Assembly: GCA_020059045.1 (NCBI GenBank)
Contig: JAGVCW010000025.1
Span: forward strand, 1-32,406
Direction: 5' to 3'
Source: Minisyncoccota bacterium
Lineage (GTDB): Bacteria > Patescibacteriota > Minisyncoccia > Phycocordibacterales > Zambryskibacteraceae
Length of the DNA: 32,406 nt
In this document: positions 9,442 through 23,742 of the stretch, piece after piece
How the letters are laid out: each line of letters opens with the position of its first letter
Position numbering within the stretch: position 1 is the stretch's first letter
The notes under the pieces: generated by a model
What the model was told of the DNA's origin: nothing
Seen by the model: the letters and a program-made list of their open reading frames with translations, nothing else
The model's database searches: none
Position numbers and translations under genes: made by a program

Positions 9442-10905
9442 TTAATCCTTACGCACAAAAAGAGGAGCTTCTGGAGATTTATTTTCTTTTATTAATTTTT
9501 CTATTTTACCTGCAGTTATGGGCATGAATGGTCTTAATTTAATTGATATTTCAATCAAATATGCCAAAAAAACTTTGATATCTACTTCCGCTTTCTTCCT
9601 ATCAACCTTGATTGTCTTAAAGGGTTCGAGAGTTTGGATATCATTGTCTGCACGCTTTATCAAACTCCACAAGGAATCCACTGCTTCATTTACTTTAAAT
9701 TCAACAAAATAACTATCAATCTGCTCGTATAGATTGGTCTTCTTAAATAATTCTATATCTCTTTCGAGAGCTTTAATATTATTTACTTCTGCCATTTTCA
9801 TTATGCGTGACACTAGATTGCCCAAGCCATTTGCAAGATCAGCGTTGTATACAGCCTTGAATCTCTCTAGAGTCAAATCACTATCTTCAAACGGAGAAAC
9901 GTATCTCGCAAGATAGTAGCGAACTGCTTCATGACCATACTCATCGATAAGCATGAGCGGGTCTATGACATTACCAAGGGACTTGGACATTTTCTGTCCT
10001 CCGGAAGTTATAAGTCCGTGGACCAAAATGGCCTTTGGTAAAGGAAGTTTGGCTGAAAGAAGCATTGCGGGCCAAATAGCTGCATGGAAGCGCAGAATAT
10101 CTTTACCCACCACATGCAGATCAGCTGGCCAGAATTTATTGTAAAGATCACCATTCTTTGTACCGAAACCTAAGGCGCTTATATAATTGGTGAGTGCGTC
10201 ACCCCAAACATATATCCTTTGAGACAGATCCCCTGGAACTGGCACACCCACTGACACCTTGTCTGCAGAACGAGAAAAGCTAATATCCTCAAGGCCACGT
10301 TCAAGGAGCGCAAGGATTTCATTCTTTCGACTTTGTGGAATAATTCTAATCTCATCTGTTTCAATCTTTTGTTTTATCTCACTACTATATTTAGATAACT
10401 TAAAAAAGTAATTTTCTTCAGTCAATTCCTGTGGTGCTTCTCCGTGATCTGGGCACACGCCATTTACTAAATCTTTTTCAGTTAAAAATGCTTCATGCCC
10501 TACACAATATAGACCTTTGTATTCTCTCTTCTCGAGATCACCCGCGGCTACTAACCTATTCCACATTTCGATTACCCCAGGCCAATGCTTCTCTTCGTCT
10601 GATGTACGAATAAACTGATCATAAGAAATACCGAGCATTTTAAACAAGCTCTTGAAACCAGAAACCGTCTCATCTAGATAATCTTTCGTATTAATGTTTG
10701 CATCCTTTGCAGCTCTCACCACTTTTTCAGTATTTTCATCTGCTCCAGTTAGAAAGTAGACCTCCTCTCCTTTAAGCCTGTGGTAGCGAGCGAAAATATC
10801 ACAAAGCGTTGTTGTGTATTCATGACCCATATGCAAATTTGCATTTGGGTAATATATCGGAGTAGTTATATAAAAGGGTTTACCCTTCTCTTCTTGTTTA
10901 CTCAT
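9442..10905 (-). CDS. metG: Methionyl-tRNA synthetase
   Basis: This is a class I enzyme that charges tRNA-Met. Of its 487 residues, the HIGH-type motif is HMGH at 25-28 inside PIYYPNANLHMGHEYTTT, and KMSKSLGNVIDP lies near residue 305. The connective domain contains only a reduced Cys/His set (CVGHEAF ... CPDHGE), typical of the short, low-zinc form. The anticodon-binding helical domain is at the C-terminus (LIKRADNDIQTLEPF). There is no C-terminal tRNA-binding (Arc1p/EMAP-like) domain. The gene lies 20 bases after the permease gene and 19 bases before tatD, so it belongs to a minus-strand operon. Confidence 0.96.
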   Translation of the reverse strand: MSKQEEKGKPFYITTPIYYPNANLHMGHEYTTTLCDIFARYHRLKGEEVYFLTGADENTEKVVRAAKDANINTKDYLDETVSGFKSLFKMLGISYDQFIRTSDEEKHWPGVIEMWNRLVAAGDLEKREYKGLYCVGHEAFLTEKDLVNGVCPDHGEAPQELTEENYFFKLSKYSSEIKQKIETDEIRIIPQSRKNEILALLERGLEDISFSRSADKVSVGVPVPGDLSQRIYVWGDALTNYISALGFGTKNGDLYNKFWPADLHVVGKDILRFHAAIWPAMLLSAKLPLPKAILVHGLITSGGQKMSKSLGNVIDPLMLIDEYGHEAVRYYLARYVSPFEDSDLTLERFKAVYNADLANGLGNLVSRIMKMAEVNNIKALERDIELFKKTNLYEQIDSYFVEFKVNEAVDSLWSLIKRADNDIQTLEPFKTIKVDRKKAEVDIKVFLAYLIEISIKLRPFMPITAGKIEKLIKENKSPEAPLFVRKD

Positions 10906-10925
10906 ATTAAACCTGGATTAAGAAA

Positions 10926-11987
10926 TTAGTTTTTGGAAGCTTCAGACTTACGTTTTTCTACATCGTTCAAAAATTCCATGATAACTGCCGCAAGTGGGAC
11001 TGACAAAAGAATACCAAGGAAACCAGCAAGCTGACCTCCTATAACTAGAGCGAGTATAGAAATAATTGGAGGAACTCCTACAACCTTTTTCACCACAAGT
11101 GGGTATATTAGCTGGCTTTCAAACTGCTGAATTATGAGGTAAAGTCCTGCAACTATTAACGCAAGTGTTAGGCCGCCATCGAGGAACCCGATAAGAATGG
11201 CAGGAGTAGCTGCAAGGAAAGCACCGAAAATTGGTATGAGCTCAAATAGTGCTGTAAGCACACTTAGCAATAATGCATGCCTTACTCCAATAAGTGTTAA
11301 GCCAAGAAATGTAAGAACACCAACAATAACAATAAGTAGAAGCTGTCCTTGCATCCAAAGACCAATCTTGTCCTTCGACCTTCTCCAGAGATCCGCAACG
11401 TATTTCTCATGAGTTGCAGGAGTAACAATACGTAGAAACTTTCCCACACCATCCTCCTGCACTGCCAGATAGAACGAAAGTACTATTATAAGTAGGAAGC
11501 TTAGAACTCCGCCGAAAACCACATTTATAGTTCCCAAGAAACCACTTGAAATATTTGCAAGAGTAGAATTAATCTTGCCAATGATCTGGGGTAGAGAGAA
11601 ACTTTCAGAAAAACCTTGGAATATGTTTTGCGATACTTGCCCTGCGGTCGATGTAGCACTTTGTGTCAAGACAGTTGAGTATTCTGGCAAAGTTTGGAGG
11701 AAATCAAGTGACTCACCAACAAGTGGTAAGAGCAGAAAGTAAAATGTGGCAACAAAAAGTATTACAATACCCAAGTAAATTATAAGAACGGAGAGAACTC
11801 GTGGAACACGTCTCGTCACAAACCATCTTGTACCTGGCTCAATGGCAGAAGCTATGACAATAGCTGCGAGTATTACCATCACCACATCCCGGATGAGGAA
11901 TAACAAGTAGGCCAAGAAACCTATAATTATAGCCCTAATAAAGGTTCCTGATGTAATGCTGAATGACACTTCCTCCTTTTGTTGCAT
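10926..11987 (-). CDS. AI-2E family (PerM/YdiK-type) membrane permease
   Basis: This 353-residue polytopic protein has the family's pattern. A pair of N-terminal helices (FIRAIIIGFLAYLLFLI, VVMVILAAIVIASAIEP) is followed by another pair after the RVPRVLSVLIIYLGIV segment. A long amphipathic periplasmic loop (about 85-150) comes next, then a group of helices ending with SILALVIGGQLAGFLGILLS and VPLAAVIMEFLND. The motif GVLTFLGLTLIGVRHALLLS before FELIPIFGAFLAATPAI is characteristic. Members export autoinducer-2 in a few species, but most are exporters or ion antiporters of unknown substrate. It sits between the M16 peptidase and metG with short gaps, consistent with one operon. Confidence 0.9.
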   Translation of the reverse strand: MQQKEEVSFSITSGTFIRAIIIGFLAYLLFLIRDVVMVILAAIVIASAIEPGTRWFVTRRVPRVLSVLIIYLGIVILFVATFYFLLLPLVGESLDFLQTLPEYSTVLTQSATSTAGQVSQNIFQGFSESFSLPQIIGKINSTLANISSGFLGTINVVFGGVLSFLLIIVLSFYLAVQEDGVGKFLRIVTPATHEKYVADLWRRSKDKIGLWMQGQLLLIVIVGVLTFLGLTLIGVRHALLLSVLTALFELIPIFGAFLAATPAILIGFLDGGLTLALIVAGLYLIIQQFESQLIYPLVVKKVVGVPPIISILALVIGGQLAGFLGILLSVPLAAVIMEFLNDVEKRKSEASKN

Positions 11988-12018
11988 TAGGACATCATAC
12001 CACGATAACGTTACCCTG

Positions 12019-13287
12019 TTAAATCTTTAGAATCGCACGTAACTCTTTTTCATTTTCAACATCACCAACTAAAGCCAGATTGAGGCGGTTGTTATGAAAA
12101 ATATCTTTCGCAACATTCTTTATATCTTTTGCAGTAACCTTTTTTATTTTATGTTCAATTTCTGATGGAGTCTCGAGTTTTCCTTTTGTCACTTCTTGAA
12201 GCGCATAGAATCCCCCGAGCCCATCTGATGACTCAAGATTCAAGTGCATTGTTCCAATTATATAGTCTTTCGTTTTCTGAAGTTCAGCATCTTTTACTTC
12301 TTCACGTAAAAGCTTTTTAAATTCTTCTATGATCGCGGAAACTACCTCTTTGACTCGCGACTTATCTACGCCAGCACTTACATACAATGAGCCGTGATTT
12401 GCATACGTATCCGTGTCGCAGTGAACATAGTAACCTACTCCCATTTCTTCACGCAGTTTGGCAAAAAGCCTAGAACTCATTCCTCCCCCAAGAATTGTCT
12501 CAAGCACCGAAAGAGCAATGTTTCTCTCATCTCCTGCTCCCCAAGTACGAACTCCGAGTACAAGATGTGTTTGGTCCGTTTTCTTATATTTGACCTTAAT
12601 CTTTGGCTTAGACTGCTTCTCTGTTAATTTTGGATTCTTAGGCCTTGGAGCGGTCGATATCCGAGCAAAAGATTTTTCTACCAATTCTTCAACAATACTT
12701 TGGTTAAATGCACCAGATACTATTACAATTGTTGCCTTAGCAACATAATGTTTTGATCTGTACCCAATAAAGTCGTCTCTTACAATTTTCTTAATCACAT
12801 CTCTATCTCCTAAAATATTACTTCCTGCAGGATCACTTCCATATAAAAGCTCTAGAAAAAGATATGGTGCAAGTGCCTGGGGGGTGTCTTCATACATATT
12901 CATCTCCTCAAGTATCACGCCTTTCTCCTTCTCTATCTCTGATACTGGAAAAGTTGAATTTAAGTATATATCTGTGAGAACATCTACAATCTTTTCAGTG
13001 TGTTTAGGATGAGCTTTGGCCCAATAACCTGTATATTCATGCATTGTAAAGGCGTTTGATCTTGACCCAATACCATCTAAATCTCTTGCAATATCCATGG
13101 CTGTCGGCCTCTTTTCTGTACCTTTAAAACACATATGCTCCAGAAAATGAGATATGCCATTTTGGGTTTTTAACTCATATTTTGCACCAGTTTCGGCGAC
13201 AACCATTATTGTAGTGGTACTACTTGATTCAATTGGGACAGTAATAAGGCGAAGGCCGTTCTCAAAGGTTTTTTTAGTAAAATTCAT
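12019..13287 (-). CDS. M16 family zinc metallopeptidase
   Basis: This is a 422-residue pitrilysin-type protease. The inverted zinc motif HxxEH is HFLEH at residues 47-51, with the third ligand Glu127 in EKGVILEEMNMYE, 76 residues on as in the family. The second half carries the non-catalytic domain, including GGGMSSRLFAKLREEMGVGYYV with the conserved Arg/Tyr region. Single-chain subunits of this length work as homodimers or with a partner in related bacteria; no partner is seen here. Substrates are small peptides or leader sequences in known members. It heads the minus-strand series M16-permease-metG-tatD. No Shine-Dalgarno sequence precedes the ATG. Confidence 0.93.
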   Translation of the reverse strand: MNFTKKTFENGLRLITVPIESSSTTTIMVVAETGAKYELKTQNGISHFLEHMCFKGTEKRPTAMDIARDLDGIGSRSNAFTMHEYTGYWAKAHPKHTEKIVDVLTDIYLNSTFPVSEIEKEKGVILEEMNMYEDTPQALAPYLFLELLYGSDPAGSNILGDRDVIKKIVRDDFIGYRSKHYVAKATIVIVSGAFNQSIVEELVEKSFARISTAPRPKNPKLTEKQSKPKIKVKYKKTDQTHLVLGVRTWGAGDERNIALSVLETILGGGMSSRLFAKLREEMGVGYYVHCDTDTYANHGSLYVSAGVDKSRVKEVVSAIIEEFKKLLREEVKDAELQKTKDYIIGTMHLNLESSDGLGGFYALQEVTKGKLETPSEIEHKIKKVTAKDIKNVAKDIFHNNRLNLALVGDVENEKELRAILKI

Positions 13288-13355
13288 TGGATGAGTCTAT
13301 CAAAAAATTTGGAAAGAATGAATGAACTTGCATATGACTCTTAAAAAATTATAAA

Positions 13356-13380
13356 ACCGTAAGGGATTTACCCTTACGGT
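13356..13380 (-). terminator. Intrinsic terminator after the 72-residue orphan
   Basis: A ten-base perfect stem (accgtaaggg/cccttacggt) with a five-base loop is followed on the minus strand by ttttataatttttt. The stop codon of the upstream small gene lies in the stem, which supports that gene being real and separately transcribed from the M16 operon. Confidence 0.85.
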
Positions 13381-13592
13381 GAACTGTGCCAAACAACCCT
13401 TAGTCTGTGCCAAAGCAGAAACTTGCCACCGTTCGGAGCACGATCTCCATACACCTGCCTATAGGCTTCTCGTATCTTGTCTTCCGAAATTCTACCAACA
13501 TTTGGGCCAAGGATAACTGCAACCTGCTCGATCTTCAGAGCTTCAGATGCGGTAGAGACAAGATCACTTTCGCCTGACAAAGAAGGTTTCAT
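13374..13592 (-). CDS. Small protein of unknown function
   Basis: This is a 72-residue protein with no recognised family. The frame opens at a TTG at 13595, but the ATG at 13592 is preferred because AAGGAG lies five bases upstream, a strong Shine-Dalgarno sequence. The sequence has two helical-looking blocks (LVSTASEALKIEQVAVIL and ISEDKIREAYRQVYGDRAP) and a Trp/Arg-rich tail (LLWHRLRVVWHSSP). It is followed at once by a strong terminator. The clear RBS, clean frame and terminator support expression as a monocistronic unit. Confidence 0.6.
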   Translation of the reverse strand: MKPSLSGESDLVSTASEALKIEQVAVILGPNVGRISEDKIREAYRQVYGDRAPNGGKFLLWHRLRVVWHSSP

Positions 13593-13694
13593 CAAAACTC
13601 CTTGGGAAGGTCAGTACTAATGATATCACTCACTAAGTCAATATATAAAGGGTAATGGATTTCAGTTTGATTAAAAAAACCGCATGCCTTTCGA

Positions 13695-13958
13695 CTAGCG
13701 ATTTGGAACTGGAGATCGATTGTTTTTTAATTCTTGTATTCGTTTATGAATTTGATCCGCTACTTGAGGAGAGACAATTGGTCGCCCAAATACTTCGCTA
13801 TATATTGGGCCAATATCTTCTAGTCCTTTAGCGAAGATCTTAGTCGCCGCGAGTTCAATCTGTGCTTTCAGATTAACAATTTCTCCTCTTCGCTCTGTGT
13901 TTATCTCCGTAGCAGAGTGTCTTGTTTTCGGCCCCCCTTTCAGACGAATTAGGGTCAT
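13695..13958 (-). CDS. Small protein of unknown function
   Basis: This is an 87-residue, basic, mainly helical protein. Two ATGs lie close together at 13964 and 13958. CTGGAG directly abuts the first and is six bases before the second, so 13958 (MTLIRLKGG) is the better start. The middle (RGEIVNLKAQIELAATKIFA) could form a short coiled coil. The C-terminal part (SPQVADQIHKRIQELKNNRS) is again helical and charged. I see no known motif. It sits between glyS and the 72-residue orphan on the same strand and is about 50 bases from glyS. Confidence 0.55.
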   Translation of the reverse strand: MTLIRLKGGPKTRHSATEINTERRGEIVNLKAQIELAATKIFAKGLEDIGPIYSEVFGRPIVSPQVADQIHKRIQELKNNRSPVPNR

Positions 13959-14020
13959 ACCCATCTCCAGGTGAAAGAACGAAGTTCATAGTACATCAAA
14001 ATAATTAGGCTGGCAAGACT

Positions 14021-15355
14021 CTACTTCGTGAGAAAACTTACTAATTCACTTACGCCCACTCTCTCCTGATTACCTGTGTCTCTATCTCGCACTGTTACGG
14101 TATTATCATCAAGTGTTTGAAAATCTATTGTGACGCATTGTGGAGTGCCGATTTCATCTTGCCTTCTGTATCGCTTGCCTATGTTTCCATTGTCATCAAA
14201 CTCAGTGCTTGGAATCTGCTTTTTAATAAGAGCATGTACATCACGTGCCTTACTTATCAAATCTGGTTTGTTCTTTAGAAGTGGAAAAACGGCTACTTGA
14301 ATGGGAGCCAGGTGCTTTGCAAGTTTCAAATACGATCTAGTTTCTCCACCCAATTCATCTTCAGAATAAGCTTCAAGCAAAACAAAGAGAACCGCCCTAT
14401 CTACTCCCCCAGAGCACTCAATATCCCAAGGGATATAACGCTCTTTCTTTTCTTCATCAAAATATGACAAATCTTTGCCTGAGTATTCATTGTGTCTCTT
14501 CAAGTCCCAGTCTCCACGGTGATGAATCCCCCAAGCCTCTTTCCATCCGCCAAAAGGCGCGTTGTATTCAATATCCCAAGCATCCTTTGCATAGTGAGCT
14601 CGTTCATCTGAAGCATGCGCTCTAAGGCGCAAGTTTTCTTTCTTGAATCCAAGATTTAAATACCAATTAAACGCAAACTCCTTCCAATATTCAAACATTT
14701 TCTTTCCCTCTTCCTCGTCAGGTCGAATATAATATTGAAGTTCCATTTGTTCAAACTCACGCTGTCGAAAAAGGAAGTCTCGAGGGGTAATTTCATTCCG
14801 AAAAGCTTTTCCAATTTGGCCAATACCAAATGGAATTTTTGGATGCATCGAGTCCAAAATATTTTTGAAATTAACATGTACACCTTGGGTTATTTCTCCA
14901 CGTAAATAGACCTTAGTAGCAGAATCCTGTGATGCGCCGAGCTTTGTTTCGACTAGTAGATTAAAAACTTTTGGTTCTGACCATTTTGTTTTTTCTTTCT
15001 TTTTTGTGTGCATGTCTTCATGCTCCTTGATCGCGTCTAAGAGATCCTCCCTAATACGAGCGTGACAAAGTTCGCATTCAACTAGTGGATCACTGAATTG
15101 CTCAGTGTGTCCACTCGCCTCCCAAACTCGCTCAGGCATAAGTATTGCTGCACTCATTCCATACACATCCTCTCTCTCAGAAATAAATTTATTCCAAAAG
15201 TATTGTTTTATATTGTGTCTAAGCTCAACTCCAAGTGGGCCATAATCATAGATGCCGGCCAAGCCACCATAAATTTCTGATCCGGGGAAAATAAACCCCC
15301 GACGCTTGGCAAGAGAGACGATCTTTTCTAATTTTTCTGAATCAGATTTCAACAT
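14021..15355 (-). CDS. glyS: Glycyl-tRNA synthetase (alpha2, class II)
   Basis: This 444-residue enzyme charges tRNA-Gly. It is the dimeric type found in archaea, eukaryotes and many bacteria. The N-terminal region has GSEIYGGLAGIYDYGPLGVE (motif 1 area). A CELC pair belongs to the insertion. Motif 2 is FRNEITPRDFLFRQREF, and motif 3 is SGGVDRAVLFVLLEAY. The C-terminal anticodon-binding domain begins near HLAPIQVAVFPLLKNK and ends with VTVRDRDTGNQERVGV. Length is typical of compact members. The start is 16 bases after the preceding gene, so it is co-transcribed with ileS-recO and the membrane-anchored protein. Confidence 0.96.
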   Translation of the reverse strand: MLKSDSEKLEKIVSLAKRRGFIFPGSEIYGGLAGIYDYGPLGVELRHNIKQYFWNKFISEREDVYGMSAAILMPERVWEASGHTEQFSDPLVECELCHARIREDLLDAIKEHEDMHTKKKEKTKWSEPKVFNLLVETKLGASQDSATKVYLRGEITQGVHVNFKNILDSMHPKIPFGIGQIGKAFRNEITPRDFLFRQREFEQMELQYYIRPDEEEGKKMFEYWKEFAFNWYLNLGFKKENLRLRAHASDERAHYAKDAWDIEYNAPFGGWKEAWGIHHRGDWDLKRHNEYSGKDLSYFDEEKKERYIPWDIECSGGVDRAVLFVLLEAYSEDELGGETRSYLKLAKHLAPIQVAVFPLLKNKPDLISKARDVHALIKKQIPSTEFDDNGNIGKRYRRQDEIGTPQCVTIDFQTLDDNTVTVRDRDTGNQERVGVSELVSFLTK

Positions 15356-15371
15356 AGAAATACTTAATTTT

Positions 15372-17303
15372 TTACTTTACCACAATATCATCATCTCCTT
15401 TAAAACCGGGATCCGTAGTAGCTCGCGTGGTTAGGTCTGGCCTGAATACCTCAAGCAAGCGTCCGGTGAATTTGTCGTTTGCGACTGCTTTAACACTAGA
15501 CATAAGTACCGGAGAAGTTCCAACCTGGCTTAAGCTTGGAGTTAGGGCAACGTGGAAGGCAACTTCACGTGGGTTTAGAGTGACACCTGTACCAGAGCGC
15601 AATTCACCAACATTCCATATAACTTTCTTTTGTATAGTGTCATAAGTAATGTTTTCTGTTTGTGGACTTGTAAGACCTTGCCACTTTACATACGACGGCA
15701 AGACTCCTTCAACCCGCACGCTTCCTAAATCATTCGATGAGTTAGTTAGGTTCCAGATAATTGTATATGTTGTCTCCATATCGGCCCTAGGTGGTATTGG
15801 ACCCATGTTTTCAAACGGTCCAGTTGAACGTACAACTCGTGAAGAAAATCCGAGAACTGATGAGATCTTCACAGAACGCTCTGCTGTAGTAAATATTGAT
15901 TGTGGCGGCCCACTTGGTGAAAGTTGATTACCAGAAACACTTAGAACAATTTTAATATCTTGCTCACGCATAGATGATGAAATATTTGATATAGGCGCAA
16001 AAGTAAAACTAACTGCGCTACTTTCACCTGGATCCACACTTGAGAAATCTGGGTTAAACGATTTATCCCAAACTATTGTGTTATCAACTGATCTATAGAA
16101 ACCACCCTGTCCAGCAGCAACACTGTTTCTATCAAGAGACGCCCCTGTTAAACGAGCTTCTATCTTCATGTCTAGAAGTTTCGCCGACAAGTTGTTTGAC
16201 CAAACAATATTTGCTTTTACTTTCTGGCCTGGAGTTATGACTATATTGTTTCCCGTATCTCCATCAAACGATACCACGAGCCCAACAAACGGTTTCTTAA
16301 TTAGAACTGACTCAGCCATCACAGCAAGTGTTGCGCCAATCAAGTCTTCTTCATCCTTCGATGCAATACCTAAAGAAAAGTGAAAGGTTCTTTCCTCTTC
16401 ATTTTGCCCTTCTAGGGTACCTTTTATCTTTATTGTTTTCCTCTCACCACTTGGTAGGTCACCAACATCCCACGACGAATCTGCTAATACTGCTTGTGGT
16501 ACAGCACTTTTAAATGTGAAACCAAATGGATACTCTGCCTTAAGAATTAGATCATGAAGAACTTCTCCACTATTTGATGAGACTTCTACCACAAACTCGA
16601 ATTCTTGATTTGCATTTACTTCCTTTGGATAGTCAACCGTCACTATTACTGGCGTAGACTTTATAGCAAGTTCATATTTCTTTTCTTTATAGAACAACGC
16701 ACTTGATCCCTTCACTCTGTATTCTAAAGTTAACTTGACCTCTCTTACACTCTCCTTCTCACCAAAAAAAATTGATTTTAAAGTTTTGCGCACTTCTTTG
16801 CCTGCCTCTATCGAACCAATGGGGATGCGTTCTCTTACAAGTGGCGTAGTTGGATCCTCCGCAACACGTGTACCTTCTGGATACTCTACAAGAAGGGTGA
16901 CGCTTTCTATATCTGCTTTGTTGTTATTAGAAAGTATTGTCTCTAGGGACAGAACAGACCCTCCGGCAGTTGAAGTAGGGCCTAGCACCTGAATATCAAT
17001 ATTGTTCGCAGAAACAAAGTTTTTACCACCAAAAAAAACTGCAAGGACTACGCCAATAGACAGGACAAAAAACGCAACCGCTCCAATAAGTAATTTTTTG
17101 AAAAAATTGTTCTGCTTCTCTTCGCGGTGTATACGCTCACGCATCAAAAGTTCATTCATCCCCTCTTCCTCTTTCCAAACTGAACCCACAGCCGGGGCTT
17201 CTCCCTTTATCTCTGAGCGAATGTCTACGTAGGCTTCGTTTGGCTTACGAGAGTATAGCTTCTGCTCCATTCTCTCTATGCGCTTTTTGTCAAAATCTTG
17301 CAT
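15372..17303 (-). CDS. Membrane-anchored repeat beta-domain (DUF11-like) protein
   Basis: This 643-residue protein has a cytoplasmic charged N-terminus of about 69 residues, one transmembrane helix at about 70-92 (LLIGAVAFFVLSIGVVLAVF) and a large external part. The external region repeats a beta-sandwich pattern with phrases such as LVEYPEGTRVAEDPTTP, LKAEYPFGFTF with SSWDVGDLPSGE, and VEGVLPSYVKWQ with WNVGELRSGTGV. These phrases (weak V.vt.P...f, W.vG.L..G) are typical of DUF11 or conserved-repeat domains in surface proteins. It lies between recO and glyS with short gaps on both sides. I infer an envelope structural or adhesion role; no enzyme motif is visible. Confidence 0.75.
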   Translation of the reverse strand: MQDFDKKRIERMEQKLYSRKPNEAYVDIRSEIKGEAPAVGSVWKEEEGMNELLMRERIHREEKQNNFFKKLLIGAVAFFVLSIGVVLAVFFGGKNFVSANNIDIQVLGPTSTAGGSVLSLETILSNNNKADIESVTLLVEYPEGTRVAEDPTTPLVRERIPIGSIEAGKEVRKTLKSIFFGEKESVREVKLTLEYRVKGSSALFYKEKKYELAIKSTPVIVTVDYPKEVNANQEFEFVVEVSSNSGEVLHDLILKAEYPFGFTFKSAVPQAVLADSSWDVGDLPSGERKTIKIKGTLEGQNEEERTFHFSLGIASKDEEDLIGATLAVMAESVLIKKPFVGLVVSFDGDTGNNIVITPGQKVKANIVWSNNLSAKLLDMKIEARLTGASLDRNSVAAGQGGFYRSVDNTIVWDKSFNPDFSSVDPGESSAVSFTFAPISNISSSMREQDIKIVLSVSGNQLSPSGPPQSIFTTAERSVKISSVLGFSSRVVRSTGPFENMGPIPPRADMETTYTIIWNLTNSSNDLGSVRVEGVLPSYVKWQGLTSPQTENITYDTIQKKVIWNVGELRSGTGVTLNPREVAFHVALTPSLSQVGTSPVLMSSVKAVANDKFTGRLLEVFRPDLTTRATTDPGFKGDDDIVVK

Positions 17304-17333
17304 TGGTCAATTATAACACGCAGTAAGGACGAA

Positions 17334-17927
17334 TTACGAAAGATGACTTTCTTCGATAGCTTTATTTATATCTTGCAATATCTCGCGCTTGTAATCACTT
17401 GCCGCCCTAATAACATCTTTACTCCAGGCCGCATCAAGAATGTTTTCATACTCTTTTTTCCTAGCTATATAACCCAGATCTTCTAGAATCCTAAAAACTA
17501 AAACTATTTCGAACAACCTACATTCATCCTTGCTAAAAATCTCTTTTTTTAGAAAATCGAAACCACCAGTTAGAATTTGGAAAAGCTTCTTGTCTGCCCG
17601 TTCTCCCGTAACAAGGCTCCGAAGGAGACGGAGAACCTCGAAGCTTATACGTAATTTATCTTTTTCATTTTGGAAATCTTTATAAAGATTTCTCTCACTT
17701 GTTGCACTTGTGATTCGCCATGCAACTTTCCCTTTTACCACTGTAATAGTAGAAAGTGAGAAATCAAGAAGACCACTATTTAGTTTAGAGTCTTCCCTTC
17801 TAACACTTTTTGCAAATGCTCGTATAAGCCCTAAACCCTCTGTAAAGATGTACAGGTACTTATCTGCTTCACCAGTTTGCTCTCCCTTGAGAACAATCCC
17901 TTCCGTTGTATAGAGATTATATGCCAT
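17334..17927 (-). CDS. recO: DNA repair protein RecO
   Basis: RecO loads RecA onto SSB-covered single strands together with RecR. The 197 residues begin with the family's N-terminal OB-fold pattern (LYTTEGIVLKGEQTGEADKY, LYIFTEGLGLIRAFAKSVRR, GLLDFSLSTITVVKGKVAW). A helical domain follows, ending with ILEDLGYIARKKEY. The usual zinc cysteines are absent and the protein is shorter than the roughly 240-residue norm, as in many reduced genomes. Its ATG overlaps the ileS stop in a TAATG arrangement (one base shared), so it is translationally coupled to ileS. Confidence 0.88.
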   Translation of the reverse strand: MAYNLYTTEGIVLKGEQTGEADKYLYIFTEGLGLIRAFAKSVRREDSKLNSGLLDFSLSTITVVKGKVAWRITSATSERNLYKDFQNEKDKLRISFEVLRLLRSLVTGERADKKLFQILTGGFDFLKKEIFSKDECRLFEIVLVFRILEDLGYIARKKEYENILDAAWSKDVIRAASDYKREILQDINKAIEESHLS

Positions 17928-20900
17928 TAATCTAACGAAACTTCAAACCATGTTTGAGTGTTAGGATTACTCGTGCGGACGACTTTTATATTACTTATAT
18001 TTGTCACCTTTTTAATTCTATCCATGTTTCGTTCTATGACTCCCGCAAAATTTTCAGAAATTGATACTATACCAGTAACTTTTTCATCTGGTGTTAGACC
18101 TTTTTCTTTACGTAATTCCTGAAAGGCTCGAATAACGTCTTGGGTATCCCCTTCTTCTTTTAGCTCTGGGGTTATAACCGTATCTAACTCCATCTCATCA
18201 CTTATGGAACTACCGAACGTCACCTCCTTTATATTTACTTCATCCTTAACTAGTTCGATTAATTCTAGTTTACTTTTCAAAACTTCGCTTTTAACTTTTA
18301 ACTTGCTTAATGGCTGTCTTACTTTTATCTGGGCCGTAGAGCGCTTTTCTAGTGCAACTGAAACCAAATCCCTAACAACTTTCATGTCTTTTAACAACTC
18401 TTCATCTACCTTCCCCGCCTTGGGCCAGGCTTCCAAATGTACACTTTGGGAGTCACCAGGAAGACGAACTCCTTGAAAAATCTCCTCAGAAATAAACGGC
18501 ATGATTGGGGCAATGACTTTAGCAAAATCTAGAAATACTTTATGCATTGTAGAAAGTGCAAACTGCTTGTCTAGAACATTCTCCCCTTTTACTCTGTTTC
18601 TTGAGCGCCTCACATACCAAGTAGATAGATCATCAACAAAGTCACTAATTTGTCGCGCTGCAGATACTGTATCAAAGTGGTCAAAGGCATATGTAACTCT
18701 TTCGATAACTTGATTGAGGCGCGACATTATCCACTTATCAAGAATGTGCGTGCTCTCCTTGGCTTTAACCAGAGGATTGTAATCATTTTTGAATAAAAGG
18801 AAAAAAGTGTAAGTATTACTTAAAAGTGACACAACTCTATTTTGAACAACACGTAGATCTTCGTCCTTGAAATTAAAATCTTCAGCCTTCATAACCACAC
18901 TTCCTAACAAATAGAAACGAAAAGCATCTGCACTAAAACGATCAATGTTATCTAGAGGATCTGTATAGTTAGCTTTTGATTTGGATATTTTGCTCCCATC
19001 AGCTGCAAGTAAAGTGCCTGTAGTCAGTACATTTTTAAAAGCAAGCTTGTCGAACAAGAGGTTGCCCAAAGAATGCATATAGTAAAACCAGGTTCGTGTT
19101 TGAGCAATATACTCAGACACAAAGTCTCCTGGAAATCTCTTTTCAAATTCCTTTTTGTTTTCAAATGGGTAGTGATACTCTGCAAACGGCATACATCCAG
19201 ACTCCACCCAGCAATCCACGACCTCAGTAGTACGAATATATTCTTTTCCATCTTTTTCTAAAATAATCTTATCAATATACGGTCGATGAAGATCAAGCTC
19301 GTAGTTGCTATTGTGAGAAAGTTTTGTAACTGAAAAAGGTTCCATGTAGGCATCTGGAATGTTTCTAAATGTGTTTCGTATTACCCCTGCGGAGTGCTCA
19401 CCATCCATTCCTACCAATATCGAAGGAACAACCTGAAAGCCTACTCCGTGGGTTACGACAATAATATTTTTATCCTTATACTTTTCCTCTAAATCATACA
19501 AAAAATCTCCAAATCTATTCTTTGTCTGCTGTAGACTCTCTCCATTTGGCACCGAAAAATTCATGTCAAACTCATGGCCTTTGCGAAAGGCAGAATACTC
19601 ATCCCAAGATTTCAAGTTAAAATCTCCGAAATTATACTCGGCCACACGAGAATCTTCTTTAATTTTTTCTTTATCAAAACCTAGTCCTTCTGCAATAATA
19701 TCTGCAGTCTCCTTGGCACGCAAAAAGGGTGAACGAATTATCATATCCACACGCTCACTCTTAAGTTTCATTACAGTAGCCCTAACATGCTCCTTACCTT
19801 TTTCTGTAACATGGAAGGGGCTCTCTGGGTCACTACTACAAATATCTAGAACGTTATGCTCTGCCTCTCCATGACGAACAAAAAAATAGCGGTTACCAGA
19901 TTTTTTACTGTATTTTTTCAATTCATCTATTGAACCAATCACAAGTAAACCTTTTCCATCACGTTCTTTCCATATTGGTATTGGACTTGCCCAAAAACGG
20001 TTGCGAGATATTGTCCAGTCTGGAGCGTTATCAACAATATTTTTAAATCTACCATCTTTTAGATGCTCTGGGATCCAATTTATCTTTTCATTCTCCTTAA
20101 GCATTCGCTTTTTAACAGACTGTATATCGATAAACCACGAAGGAACCGCGTTATATATAAGAGGTGTGCCACATCTGTAACAATGTGGGTACGAGTGAGT
20201 ATTCATAGCACGACGAAATATGAGGCCTCTCGTTTCCAGGTCCGCCTTTATTGTTTTCTCCGCTTTCTTAATATATTGCCCTCGTATTATCTCTGGTGCT
20301 TTGTCATTGAATGTCGCACTTGCATCCAAAAGTTGAACCATAGGTAGTCCTTCTTTTTGTCCCAAAGCATAGTCATCTTCTCCATACATAACTGCGGTAT
20401 GAACAATACCTGTTCCTTCAGTAGTAGTAACGAAATCAGCTCCGACAACTGAGTACTTTTTGCCTTTATGATCCCCCATTACTGAAATTGTGTAGAGAGG
20501 TTCGTATTGAAGACCAATAAGATCTTTGCCTTTCTGTTTCTCAATAACCTTGTACTCATCTTCTCCGAAGACATCTTTAAGTCTCTCTTCTGCAAGAATA
20601 AATCTCACGAGAGAGCCGGTACCCATATCCTTTTTTTCAATCGTTACATATTCTGTATCTCTATGAACCGCTAGGGCAACATTCCCTGGCAAGGTCCACG
20701 GTGTTGTCGTCCAAGCAAGCAAGTAAGTTGCCTGAGTTAAATCATTTTCAAATTTTGATTTTATAACTTTAAATTTAATTGTTACAGCCTCTTCAGTAAC
20801 ATCCTTATAAGTATCATCCATCGCAATCTCTGCTTTTGCTAACGGAGTTTCACAATGTGGACAATACATAAGCACCCTGTTCCCTTCATAGAGCTTCCCT

Positions 20901-21442
20901 TTGTCATATATTTGTTTAAGAGCCCACCAGACTGACTCAATGTAAGCGGTGTCCATTGTTTTGTAGGAGTTGTCGAAATCAACCCAGCGACCAACTCTTT
21001 CTACATACCACTTCCAGTCCGATACATACTGAAGCACAAGAGAACGTGCCGTTTCATTAAATACATCAATGCCAATATTTAAAATATCTTTTTTGGTCTT
21101 GAGACCCAGTTTTTTTTCTACAAGGGATTCTATAGGCAAACCGTGAGTATCCCACCCCCAGCGTCTACGTACGTAAAACCCTTGCATAGTTTTATACCTA
21201 GGAATCGCGTCTTTGGATATTGATGCAAGAAGTGAGCCTGCGTGTGGTAGTCCTGTAGCAAAAGGCGGTCCGTCATAAAATACAAATTCTCCTTTATGAG
21301 CCTCTTTATCTAAAGTTTTCTTAAAAGTATCATTTTCCTGCCAAAATTTGAGAATTTCTTCTTCTTTTAAGGCAATAGCGCTTTTCACAGAGGCAGATTT
21401 CTCTTCTGTAGACTTTTTTTCTATATCCTTATTTTCAGCCAT
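17927..21442 (-). CDS. ileS: Isoleucyl-tRNA synthetase with embedded histidine-phosphatase domain
   Basis: This is a 1171-residue class I synthetase. The HIGH-type motif is HAGS (67-70) in GLPHAGSLLASI, with Ser in place of the last His. KISKS is at 818-822. The CP1 editing domain spans about 195-440 (TTTPWTLPGN, GTGIVHTAVMYGEDD), with CPHC at 194-197 and CYRC at 421-424. After SRNRFWASPIPIWKERDGKG and VIGSIDELKKYSKK, where other IleRS proteins continue to DLHRPYIDKI, about 195 residues are inserted (516-709). The insert is a histidine-phosphatase fold with RHG at 523-525, SPFLRAKETA (571-580), Glu602 in RVAEYNFGDF and the second catalytic His in VVTHGVGF (His665). The synthetase then resumes with DLHRPYIDKI and the C-terminal anticodon domain. 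Both halves look intact, so the insert is not a decay product. It heads the ileS-recO-membrane protein-glyS operon. Confidence 0.95.
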   Translation of the reverse strand: MAENKDIEKKSTEEKSASVKSAIALKEEEILKFWQENDTFKKTLDKEAHKGEFVFYDGPPFATGLPHAGSLLASISKDAIPRYKTMQGFYVRRRWGWDTHGLPIESLVEKKLGLKTKKDILNIGIDVFNETARSLVLQYVSDWKWYVERVGRWVDFDNSYKTMDTAYIESVWWALKQIYDKGKLYEGNRVLMYCPHCETPLAKAEIAMDDTYKDVTEEAVTIKFKVIKSKFENDLTQATYLLAWTTTPWTLPGNVALAVHRDTEYVTIEKKDMGTGSLVRFILAEERLKDVFGEDEYKVIEKQKGKDLIGLQYEPLYTISVMGDHKGKKYSVVGADFVTTTEGTGIVHTAVMYGEDDYALGQKEGLPMVQLLDASATFNDKAPEIIRGQYIKKAEKTIKADLETRGLIFRRAMNTHSYPHCYRCGTPLIYNAVPSWFIDIQSVKKRMLKENEKINWIPEHLKDGRFKNIVDNAPDWTISRNRFWASPIPIWKERDGKGLLVIGSIDELKKYSKKSGNRYFFVRHGEAEHNVLDICSSDPESPFHVTEKGKEHVRATVMKLKSERVDMIIRSPFLRAKETADIIAEGLGFDKEKIKEDSRVAEYNFGDFNLKSWDEYSAFRKGHEFDMNFSVPNGESLQQTKNRFGDFLYDLEEKYKDKNIIVVTHGVGFQVVPSILVGMDGEHSAGVIRNTFRNIPDAYMEPFSVTKLSHNSNYELDLHRPYIDKIILEKDGKEYIRTTEVVDCWVESGCMPFAEYHYPFENKKEFEKRFPGDFVSEYIAQTRTWFYYMHSLGNLLFDKLAFKNVLTTGTLLAADGSKISKSKANYTDPLDNIDRFSADAFRFYLLGSVVMKAEDFNFKDEDLRVVQNRVVSLLSNTYTFFLLFKNDYNPLVKAKESTHILDKWIMSRLNQVIERVTYAFDHFDTVSAARQISDFVDDLSTWYVRRSRNRVKGENVLDKQFALSTMHKVFLDFAKVIAPIMPFISEEIFQGVRLPGDSQSVHLEAWPKAGKVDEELLKDMKVVRDLVSVALEKRSTAQIKVRQPLSKLKVKSEVLKSKLELIELVKDEVNIKEVTFGSSISDEMELDTVITPELKEEGDTQDVIRAFQELRKEKGLTPDEKVTGIVSISENFAGVIERNMDRIKKVTNISNIKVVRTSNPNTQTWFEVSLD

Positions 21443-21486
21443 GATTATGGCTATCTTATCATGATTAGAGGTTCATGAAAATTTAT

Positions 21487-21516
21487 AAAATAGCAGTCTC
21501 GTGTAAGAAACTGCTA
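21487..21516 (-). terminator. Attenuator-like hairpin in the ileS leader
   Basis: On the minus strand tagcagt/actgcta form a seven-base stem (arms 21510-21516 and 21491-21497), followed by TTTTAT. It lies between the ileS -10 element and the ileS ATG, so it would terminate or attenuate ileS transcripts rather than end an upstream gene. Confidence 0.5.
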
Positions 21517-21538
21517 AAACTATCTGAGAGCGGGTTCT

Positions 21539-21544
21539 ATTATA
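21539..21544 (-). promoter_or_regulatory. -10 element of the ileS transcript
   Basis: A perfect TATAAT lies on the minus strand 97 bases before the ileS start. No good -35 hexamer is found at 16-18 bases. A start near 21532 would give a leader of about 90 bases that contains the attenuator-like hairpin. Confidence 0.45.
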
Positions 21545-21610
21545 GAGGCAAACGCGGTACGTACCCTGTTCAGTCGTGACAATAACTTTTCTTTAAATAT
21601 TTAAATAAGA

Positions 21611-21640
21611 AATCCCCCGACCAACGTGTGGTGGGGGATT
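21611..21640 (-). terminator. Terminator of the structured RNA
   Basis: An eight-base stem aatccccc/gggggatt is extended by acca/tggt around a short loop. On the minus strand it is followed by TCTTATTT. The strong stem directly ends the GC-rich region. Confidence 0.75.
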
Positions 21641-21683
21641 CCCTTCGAACCCGGGAGACCAGGAACCTGTATCAGCTCGAAGC

Positions 21684-21704
21684 GCGAAACGCGAAACGCG
21701 AAAC
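21684..21704. repeat. Heptamer repeat (GCGAAAC)x3 inside the structured RNA
   Basis: Three perfect tandem copies of gcgaaac lie in the 3' third of the RNA (gtttcgc on the transcribed strand), followed there by a degenerate gcgcttc copy. Such repeats probably arose by slippage and may set the length of a helix. Confidence 0.8.
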
Positions 21705-21992
21705 GCCCAGCCAATACAGTACTACGTACTGCCTGCACCAAGCCGACATGTTCGTCGCAAACCGGTGCAGTACTACCTGCGGCCGCCTTCAGGCCTTGTG
21801 GGCCATAAGGCAAGTGCAGTCCTGCGCGCCGGCCGTGTGGGAGCTCAGCGGTTGAGAATATATGCAGGCATTGCCTGCATGGGCGGGGGCAGGGAGAACG
21901 AACGCATATTGCTCCTGTGTTCGAAGGATGGAAGGATCGAACCCACACCTGTGGATCCACAGTACGAGACGCTCCCGTAACTTGTACTATCT

Positions 21993-22020
21993 ATTATACA
22001 CCCTTCTAGAAATTTGTCAA
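21993..22020 (-). promoter_or_regulatory. Consensus promoter of the structured RNA
   Basis: TTGACA (22020-22015) and TATAAT (21998-21993) are both perfect sigma-70-type hexamers with a 16-base spacer. This is the strongest promoter in the window and points to high constitutive expression of the RNA. It lies about 20 bases after the argS stop. Confidence 0.85.
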
Positions 22021-22041
22021 GTACATAATTGGCTTTCGTAA

Positions 22042-23742
22042 TTACATCTTTCTGGGTGCCGAAATACCAAGCAAAATAAGGCTATTCTGGAGTATCTGCG
22101 AAACTGCTTCCGTAATTGCCACCCTTTTTGATGATTTCTTATCCGCTATATCAATAATTTTGTTTTCTGCGTAAAACTTGTTGAACATTGCCGCGAGTTC
22201 AACAATATATGTCACAAGATAGCTTGGCGACATCTCAATTTGGGCTCTTTCTACTATCTCGGGGAATCTATAGATGTACCGCTCTACTTCATACACTTCA
22301 CTTGGAAACTCTGCCTCAAATTGAGATGTAATACCTGCCTCTTTTGCCTTCTCAAGTAGAGATATGCAACGCGCAAATGTGTACTGCAAGTATGGCCCTG
22401 AGTCACCTTCGAACGAAAGTGATTTATCTAGATCGAAAATAATATCTTTGCCTGGAGACTGTTTGAGAATGGAGTACTTGATAGCACCCACAGCAATTTC
22501 TTCTGAAAGCCGCTCTTTATCCTCGATACCTCTATCACTTTCCTCAATTTTCTTTAGCGCTTTTACCTTCAATTCACTGATTAGCACTTCTGCAGTGATC
22601 ACATCACCAGTACGGGAAGACATTTTCCCTGTAGGAAGTCGCAACATTCCATGCGAAACATGCTTGGTCTTCTCTGAAAGTTCTGGGAAAATCTCATGCA
22701 TTGCTCGGAGAATCACTTTGAAATATTCACTTTGTTCATTGGCCGTAACAATTATTGATGCATCATATGGGTAGACATCGTACTTGAGCTTAGCAAGCCC
22801 AAGATCTTTTGCCTCGTATGTTGGCAAACCTGCTTTATTCATAAACACACGAGTGTGCAATTGTGGATCAAAATTTTCACCATGAAATACTATTGCACCA
22901 TCACTCTCTTCAAACACATCCATATGTTTGTGCACTATTACTTTCCCAAATTCTCCAGTAGTAGATTCAAAGAAATAAAAATCAAATTTTGAACCCAGCT
23001 TTTTGTACACTTCTTCAAACTTATCAAGCGTCAGACGTCTACCCTCTTCGTACGCAGAGTTTATATTTTCATCTGTCTTTTCATAAACTAGCTTATTTGT
23101 CTTTGTTACAAGCTCTTTAAAATCTAGATCATCTTCGTACAAGGCACCACCACTTACATATGAACGAGCCACCTCTTCGGCTGAATTCCATACGACTTGT
23201 TTGTAAATTTTGTAAGCTATAGCTTTAGCCACATGGAGACCAATGTCGCTTTGATATGCAGCTCTCTTTACTTCCGCTCCATTAAAAGCTGCGAGTCTTG
23301 CGATAGCTTCACCAATCGAGTTCGGCATAAGATGCCCTATATGAAACTCCTTAAAAGGGTTTTGATTAGTGTATTCAACAATAATTTTCTGCCCTTTTAG
23401 CGAATCACTTTTCCCGTATTCCTCACCTTGCTCAAGAATTTTTCTAAGTTCAGATTCAAAGAAGCTATTCTCCAAGAAAAAGTTTATGAACCCAGGCTTT
23501 GCAACTTCAATTTTTTCAACTTGCTTAAGCAAGTTTCCCTGAGCTTGCTGAAGGACTACTGCTATCTTCTCTGCAACTTCAAGAGGATTTGCTTTAGTCG
23601 ACTTTGCAATAACCATTGCAACATTGGTGGAATATTCTCCGTGCAAAAAGCTTTCCGGGTGTTCAACGACAAAATCCACTTTTTCAAGCGAAAGGCTCTC
23701 GACTGCCTTATCAATTAACTCTTTAATAGTTTTCTGTACCAT
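22042..23742 (-). CDS. argS: Arginyl-tRNA synthetase
   Basis: This 566-residue class I enzyme charges tRNA-Arg. The N-terminal Add-1 domain includes GEYSTNVAMVIAKSTKANPL and GFINFFLENSFF. The HIGH motif is HIGH at 134-137 within NPFKEFHIGHLMPNSIGEAI. The catalytic core continues with ANEQSEYFKVILRAMHEIFP and GMLRLPTGKMSSRTGDVI, a KMSKS equivalent often degenerate in ArgRS but here KMSSR. The C-terminal DALR anticodon domain has YLQYTFARCISLLEKA and ends ISAPRKM. Transcription probably starts at a TATTAT element only six bases before the ATG, giving a leaderless message. The tmk terminator lies just upstream, so argS is transcribed separately. Confidence 0.96.
   Translation of the reverse strand: MVQKTIKELIDKAVESLSLEKVDFVVEHPESFLHGEYSTNVAMVIAKSTKANPLEVAEKIAVVLQQAQGNLLKQVEKIEVAKPGFINFFLENSFFESELRKILEQGEEYGKSDSLKGQKIIVEYTNQNPFKEFHIGHLMPNSIGEAIARLAAFNGAEVKRAAYQSDIGLHVAKAIAYKIYKQVVWNSAEEVARSYVSGGALYEDDLDFKELVTKTNKLVYEKTDENINSAYEEGRRLTLDKFEEVYKKLGSKFDFYFFESTTGEFGKVIVHKHMDVFEESDGAIVFHGENFDPQLHTRVFMNKAGLPTYEAKDLGLAKLKYDVYPYDASIIVTANEQSEYFKVILRAMHEIFPELSEKTKHVSHGMLRLPTGKMSSRTGDVITAEVLISELKVKALKKIEESDRGIEDKERLSEEIAVGAIKYSILKQSPGKDIIFDLDKSLSFEGDSGPYLQYTFARCISLLEKAKEAGITSQFEAEFPSEVYEVERYIYRFPEIVERAQIEMSPSYLVTYIVELAAMFNKFYAENKIIDIADKKSSKRVAITEAVSQILQNSLILLGISAPRKM

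Follow-up and report, generated by a model that had tools for sequence, protein, structure and literature searches.

The type-2 isoleucyl-tRNA synthetase (IleRS2) of Priestia megaterium (8c8v and 8c9d; PMC10485003) is one of the closest known counterparts of the IleRS described here, which has in common with it the whole body, the editing domain, connective peptide 2 (CP2) and the C-terminal domain, but adds within CP2 a histidine phosphatase of about 200 residues with an intact active site. The small phosphatases PhoE, PSP1 and CobC have the same fold as this insert (Z 20-23) and the same catalytic set; however, the phosphatase described here is embedded in a synthetase, and the main insert group has 'SS.P..HHLT' in place of the pocket motif 'QG..D.PLT'. 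The nearest precedent is CAAD, a single module recruited repeatedly into cyanobacterial class I synthetases, ValRS, IleRS and others among them, but CAAD is a membrane anchor and not an enzyme (PMC4893482), whereas the module in Patescibacteria is an enzyme-type domain inserted in CP2. Another IleRS with an extra enzyme-type domain, an N-acetyltransferase, is represented by the model NF040702 (ileS_w_GNAT); the enzyme is a different one, and our protein scores 336 of the 1999 bits required. A nucleic-acid enzyme is also fused to a histidine phosphatase in PRK07238, the bifunctional RNase H/acid phosphatase, where the domains lie end to end and not one inside the other, as they do here. IleRS and the small histidine phosphatases are each a classic family. 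For their combination as an internal insertion with intact catalytic residues, order-wide and repeated in ValRS, we found no description in open-access papers, though the architecture may be visible in domain databases.

The window, by which we mean the whole stretch of DNA analysed, comprises 32,406 nucleotides of contig JAGVCW010000025.1 from a Minisyncoccota bacterium of the order Phycocordibacterales. The features that concern us, all on the minus strand, are the following:

17927..21442 (-), ileS (type 2), the isoleucyl-tRNA synthetase gene, 1171 aa, which houses the inserted domain
21236..21247 (-), HIGH signature, here HAGS, from the alignment
19907..19990 (-), CP2 loop, arm preceding the insert, about aa 485-512, ASPIPIWKERDGKGLLVIGSIDELKKYS, from the alignment
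19298..19906 (-), inserted stretch, about aa 513-715, missing in insert-free relatives
19397..19885 (-), His_Phos_1 core, aa 520-682, from Pfam and fold
19868..19876 (-), RHG motif, aa 523-525, with R523 and the catalytic H524 both unchanged across 128/128
19718..19732 (-), SPFLR, aa 571-575 (S571 and the second Arg, R575), S571 and R575 invariant in 128/128
19637..19639 (-), E602, the catalytic acid, the same in all 128 inserts
19448..19450 (-), H665, the second catalytic His, likewise the same in all 128
19193..19297 (-), CP2 loop, arm following the insert, aa 716-750, begins LDLHRPYIDKI, from the alignment
18977..18991 (-), KMSKS signature, here KISKS, aa 818-822, from the alignment

By family model, editing and anticodon domains, signature motifs (with HIGH altered) and predicted fold, the window protein is an isoleucyl-tRNA synthetase. 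It passes the NCBIfam ileS model TIGR00392 with 818 bits (cut-off 621), and Pfam finds tRNA-synt_1 split in two by His_Phos_1, with Anticodon_1 at aa 902-1047. The ORF at 17927-21442(-) runs as a single frame of 1171 codons' translation with no break, and the synthetase is thus continuous on both sides of the insert, as the earlier note had it. AlphaFold2 models the whole chain with pLDDT 90.7 and pTM 0.86, and the body matches the type-2 IleRS fold with Z 45.6 over 917 aligned residues at 38% identity, the nearest solved structure being P. megaterium IleRS2. This protein is the sole full-length IleRS match in its host genome. At the HIGH site, other forms seen among the relatives are HYGS and HSGS; about two dozen have GXHH, a variant linked in IleRS2 to mupirocin hyper-resistance (PMC10485003). 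The gene lies in a minus-strand synthetase cluster (9442-23742) that also holds MetRS (9442-10905), a class II synthetase bearing HGTP_anticodon (14021-15355) and ArgRS (22042-23742), and its end shares one base with a RecO-like gene (17334-17927). Elsewhere in the window, the protein of a plus-strand gene at 25335-26297 matches, over a short stretch, the 5-hmdU DNA kinase helical domain (PF18723); genes for a thymidylate kinase and a dCTP deaminase-like protein lie close by.

The insertion site is CP2, between 'PIPIW...VIGSIDEL' and 'DLHRPYID'. Since insert-free relatives align as far as aa 510-514 of the window IleRS and pick up again at about 715-717, the limits of the insert can be set at about aa 513-715; the site given in the earlier note was therefore correct, while the extent that it proposed, 19316-19897, was slightly too narrow (about 19298-19906). 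In many relatives CP2 carries a zinc-ribbon-like pair of arms, with CxxC in the first and CxCG in the second; the window IleRS is without these cysteines.

That a histidine phosphatase sits inside the synthetase, which had been proposed from motifs, is borne out by the family search and by structure prediction alike. Within the protein recognized by TIGR00392, Pfam His_Phos_1 (PF00300) matches aa 520-682 with 94.4 bits and an E value of 9e-27 (cut-off 21.7), and the insert modelled alone adopts a histidine phosphatase fold with pLDDT 94.6 and pTM 0.91. The positions read for RHG (523-525), SPFLRAKETA, E602 and H665 proved exact in translation and alignment, and the Arg-His pair, second Arg, acid and second His of branch 1 are all present (R523, H524, R575, E602 and H665). 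Against known folds the model gives Z 18-23 for PSP, PhoE and PGM: the top match is the metal-independent phosphoserine phosphatase (PSP) 4ij6 (Z 23.3 over 183 residues), followed by glucosyl-3-phosphoglycerate phosphatase (Z 22.0) and PhoE (Z 21.4), with most mutases ranking lower (Z about 19-20). A profile built from 25 inserts likewise places PhoE (E 5e-32), PSP1 (4e-30) and CobC (3e-26) ahead of the mutases. Sequence and predicted fold together place the insert in branch 1 of the histidine phosphatase superfamily, among the small enzymes of the PhoE and phosphoserine phosphatase kind.

No model of a characterised histidine phosphatase subfamily was reached by the insert. The two best NCBIfam sub-models, archaeal dPGM (NF038349) at 90 bits and CobC (TIGR03162) at 79 bits, could hint at a moonlighting glycolytic phosphoglycerate mutase or an alpha-ribazole phosphatase, but both scores are far below their cut-offs of 225 and 162.9 bits, and gene content speaks against the mutase as well. 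Neither enolase nor the PF01676 metalloenzyme (iPGM-type) was matched in the host genome, which is 97% complete, and eight further insert-bearing genomes (G173, G214, G196, G270, G057, G170, G113 and G061) gave no enolase match. Moreover, mutase-like copies have an Arg a few residues past the second His (HGNSLR), which is absent in the inserts compared. For the host genome we rejected the glycolytic mutase role on these grounds, and we regard either of the two specialised activities as barely credible for the insert. Free-standing dPGM-like copies adjoin enolase in three genomes (G357, G072 and G268). In two other loci a dPGM-like domain is fused to a part which, named by eye, is pyruvate-kinase-like (L319, G087) or resembles D-3-phosphoglycerate dehydrogenase (L172, G418).

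The insert evolves faster than the synthetase apart from its catalytic set. Median column conservation is 0.46 in the insert vs 0.60 in the synthetase, and mean identity to the window protein is 34% vs 51% and 45% for the two halves of the body. Among 128 inserts, only 6 of 200 columns are invariant, R523, H524, S571, R575, E602 and H665, and all belong to the catalytic set; even two shortened inserts (162-173 aa) retain the catalytic residues. The earlier note had named the loss of these residues in all homologues as grounds against its reading, and they are kept in 128/128. Since nothing but the catalytic set is invariant while the median column is less conserved than that of the synthetase, the pattern looks like selection for catalysis and not for the surface. 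It could be argued that the domain is a neutral passenger in a permissive loop, its catalysis irrelevant, given that the same loop bears unrelated linkers of 6-45 aa in insert-free relatives and that the domain comes and goes. Yet the sole invariant residues of 128 divergent copies are the catalytic ones, and no other domain was seen at the CP2 loop in the sequences aligned, which makes a passenger very improbable.

A survey of IleRS across the candidate phyla radiation, which had also been proposed, shows that the architecture is widespread. The detailed comparison took in 159 IleRS: 117 belong to the order, 6 to the rest of its class and 36 to the phylum's other classes. The insert was present in 109/117 (from 71 families), 6/6 and 13/36 of these, respectively, fractions that are not population estimates, as the rows were unevenly drawn, partly for high or low score. 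In an order-wide sample the query was matched in 297/297 genomes, and among the best matches listed there nearly all span the insert, their frames measuring roughly 1090-1290 aa. When about 85,000 species were scanned with patterns, 412 relatives came up. In the best 80 of these every named one belongs to the Patescibacteria (Nomura-, Kaiser-, Zambryski-, Campbell-, Wolfe-, Taylor- and Lloydbacteria, and Paceibacterota/Minisyncoccota), with 27/80 having no phylum in the record. These best 80 include loci on two closed chromosomes (CP011215 and CP011209), and the architecture recurs in 128 genes, which rules out an assembly chimaera. Patterns drawn from the window protein alone retrieved no relative from viral contigs.

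On a FastTree phylogeny of the synthetase minus the insert, the presence of the insert switches about 15 times, at least 12 of them forced by starred branches, a rough count that cannot alone separate gain from loss. One case is likely to be a recent loss: the IleRS of G028 is insert-free (974 aa) and lies on short branches beside carriers of the same genus, G157 and G107. IleRS without the insert are normal at about 950-985 aa, and because those inside the order look normal, the insert appears, from these sequences, not to be needed for aminoacylation. Neither G028 nor G054 has a PF00300 protein anywhere in its genome. As to origin, AU tests do not reject a single clade for all embedded copies (p 0.31) or for all copies in IleRS, the second member of each tandem pair among them (p 0.12), although free trees split the embedded copies apart. 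Tandem histidine phosphatases occur in IleRS of about 1470 aa in two genomes of one family (G387 and G401; loci L121 and L122).

A module of this kind is found in a second synthetase, ValRS. In at least seven of these enzymes the corresponding CP2 loop holds a histidine phosphatase, six in the order (G173, G034, G260, G122, G011 and G248) and one in another class (G299), which has the domain in ValRS and none in IleRS. Insert-bearing ValRS loci are L157/L186, L296-L300 and L316. Five of the ValRS copies form one supported clade. Since the acid position is Asn in G260 and holds no clear acid in G299, the ValRS copies are less strictly kept, and not all of them are intact. The CP2 placement in two closely related editing synthetases would suit the main rival of the reading that we favour below, an in-cis regulator that dephosphorylates the synthetase itself or the bound tRNA end and so switches charging or editing. 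However, losses leave a normal IleRS behind and no phosphorylated form is known, and we consider this regulator unlikely.

Could the domain instead remove a by-product, hydrolysing PPi or AMP from the synthetase and thereby pulling charging forward? It does ride on an enzyme that produces both, and the host genome gave no match to the PF00719 pyrophosphatase. Nevertheless, PF00719 is present in most insert-bearing genomes of the order, with no clear link to the insert, so that replacement of an inorganic pyrophosphatase is unsupported. Every synthetase yields PPi and AMP, yet among synthetases the embedded domain was seen in IleRS and ValRS only, and we know of no small histidine phosphatase that acts as a dedicated pyrophosphatase. 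By-product removal thus seems to us quite improbable. Small histidine phosphatases act on phosphomonoesters, a class to which aminoacyl-AMP does not belong, and this speaks against the domain editing adenylates directly; an aminoacyl-phosphate analogue, as the earlier note had suggested, is chemically unlikely as the substrate of a phosphomonoesterase.

Activity, action in trans and any substrate are what we infer for the insert, and the reading that we hold to be probable is a working phosphomonoesterase tethered at the CP2 tip of a normal type-2 IleRS and acting in trans. Enzymes of the histidine phosphatase family work through a phospho-His intermediate, with an acid as proton donor and an Arg/Arg/His pocket for the phosphate. 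In the insert, His524 would take up the phosphate to give phospho-His524, Glu602 would protonate the leaving group, and Arg523, Arg575 and His665 would hold the phosphate. The tethered domain would in this way dephosphorylate a phosphomonoester, be it a small metabolite or a phosphoprotein, in trans, and would have no part in aminoacylation, being an add-on that gains co-expression and co-location on an essential enzyme.

Across a large lineage of very small bacteria, most of them uncultured, an essential translation enzyme bears a second enzyme domain whose active site is its most conserved part. Such a domain is easily overlooked, because the family model calls the protein simply isoleucine--tRNA ligase. 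The same loop in IleRS and ValRS, the tandem copies and the losses offer natural comparisons. We put forward only tentatively that in Patescibacteria histidine phosphatases are a recurrent, selected module of IleRS and ValRS, both of them editing synthetases of class Ia, and that this would give the cells a translation-coupled phosphatase reaction not known from elsewhere. The domain suggests that protein synthesis is physically tied to a phosphate-removing reaction, and its substrate, once found, would link charging to phosphate metabolism in minimal-genome cells.
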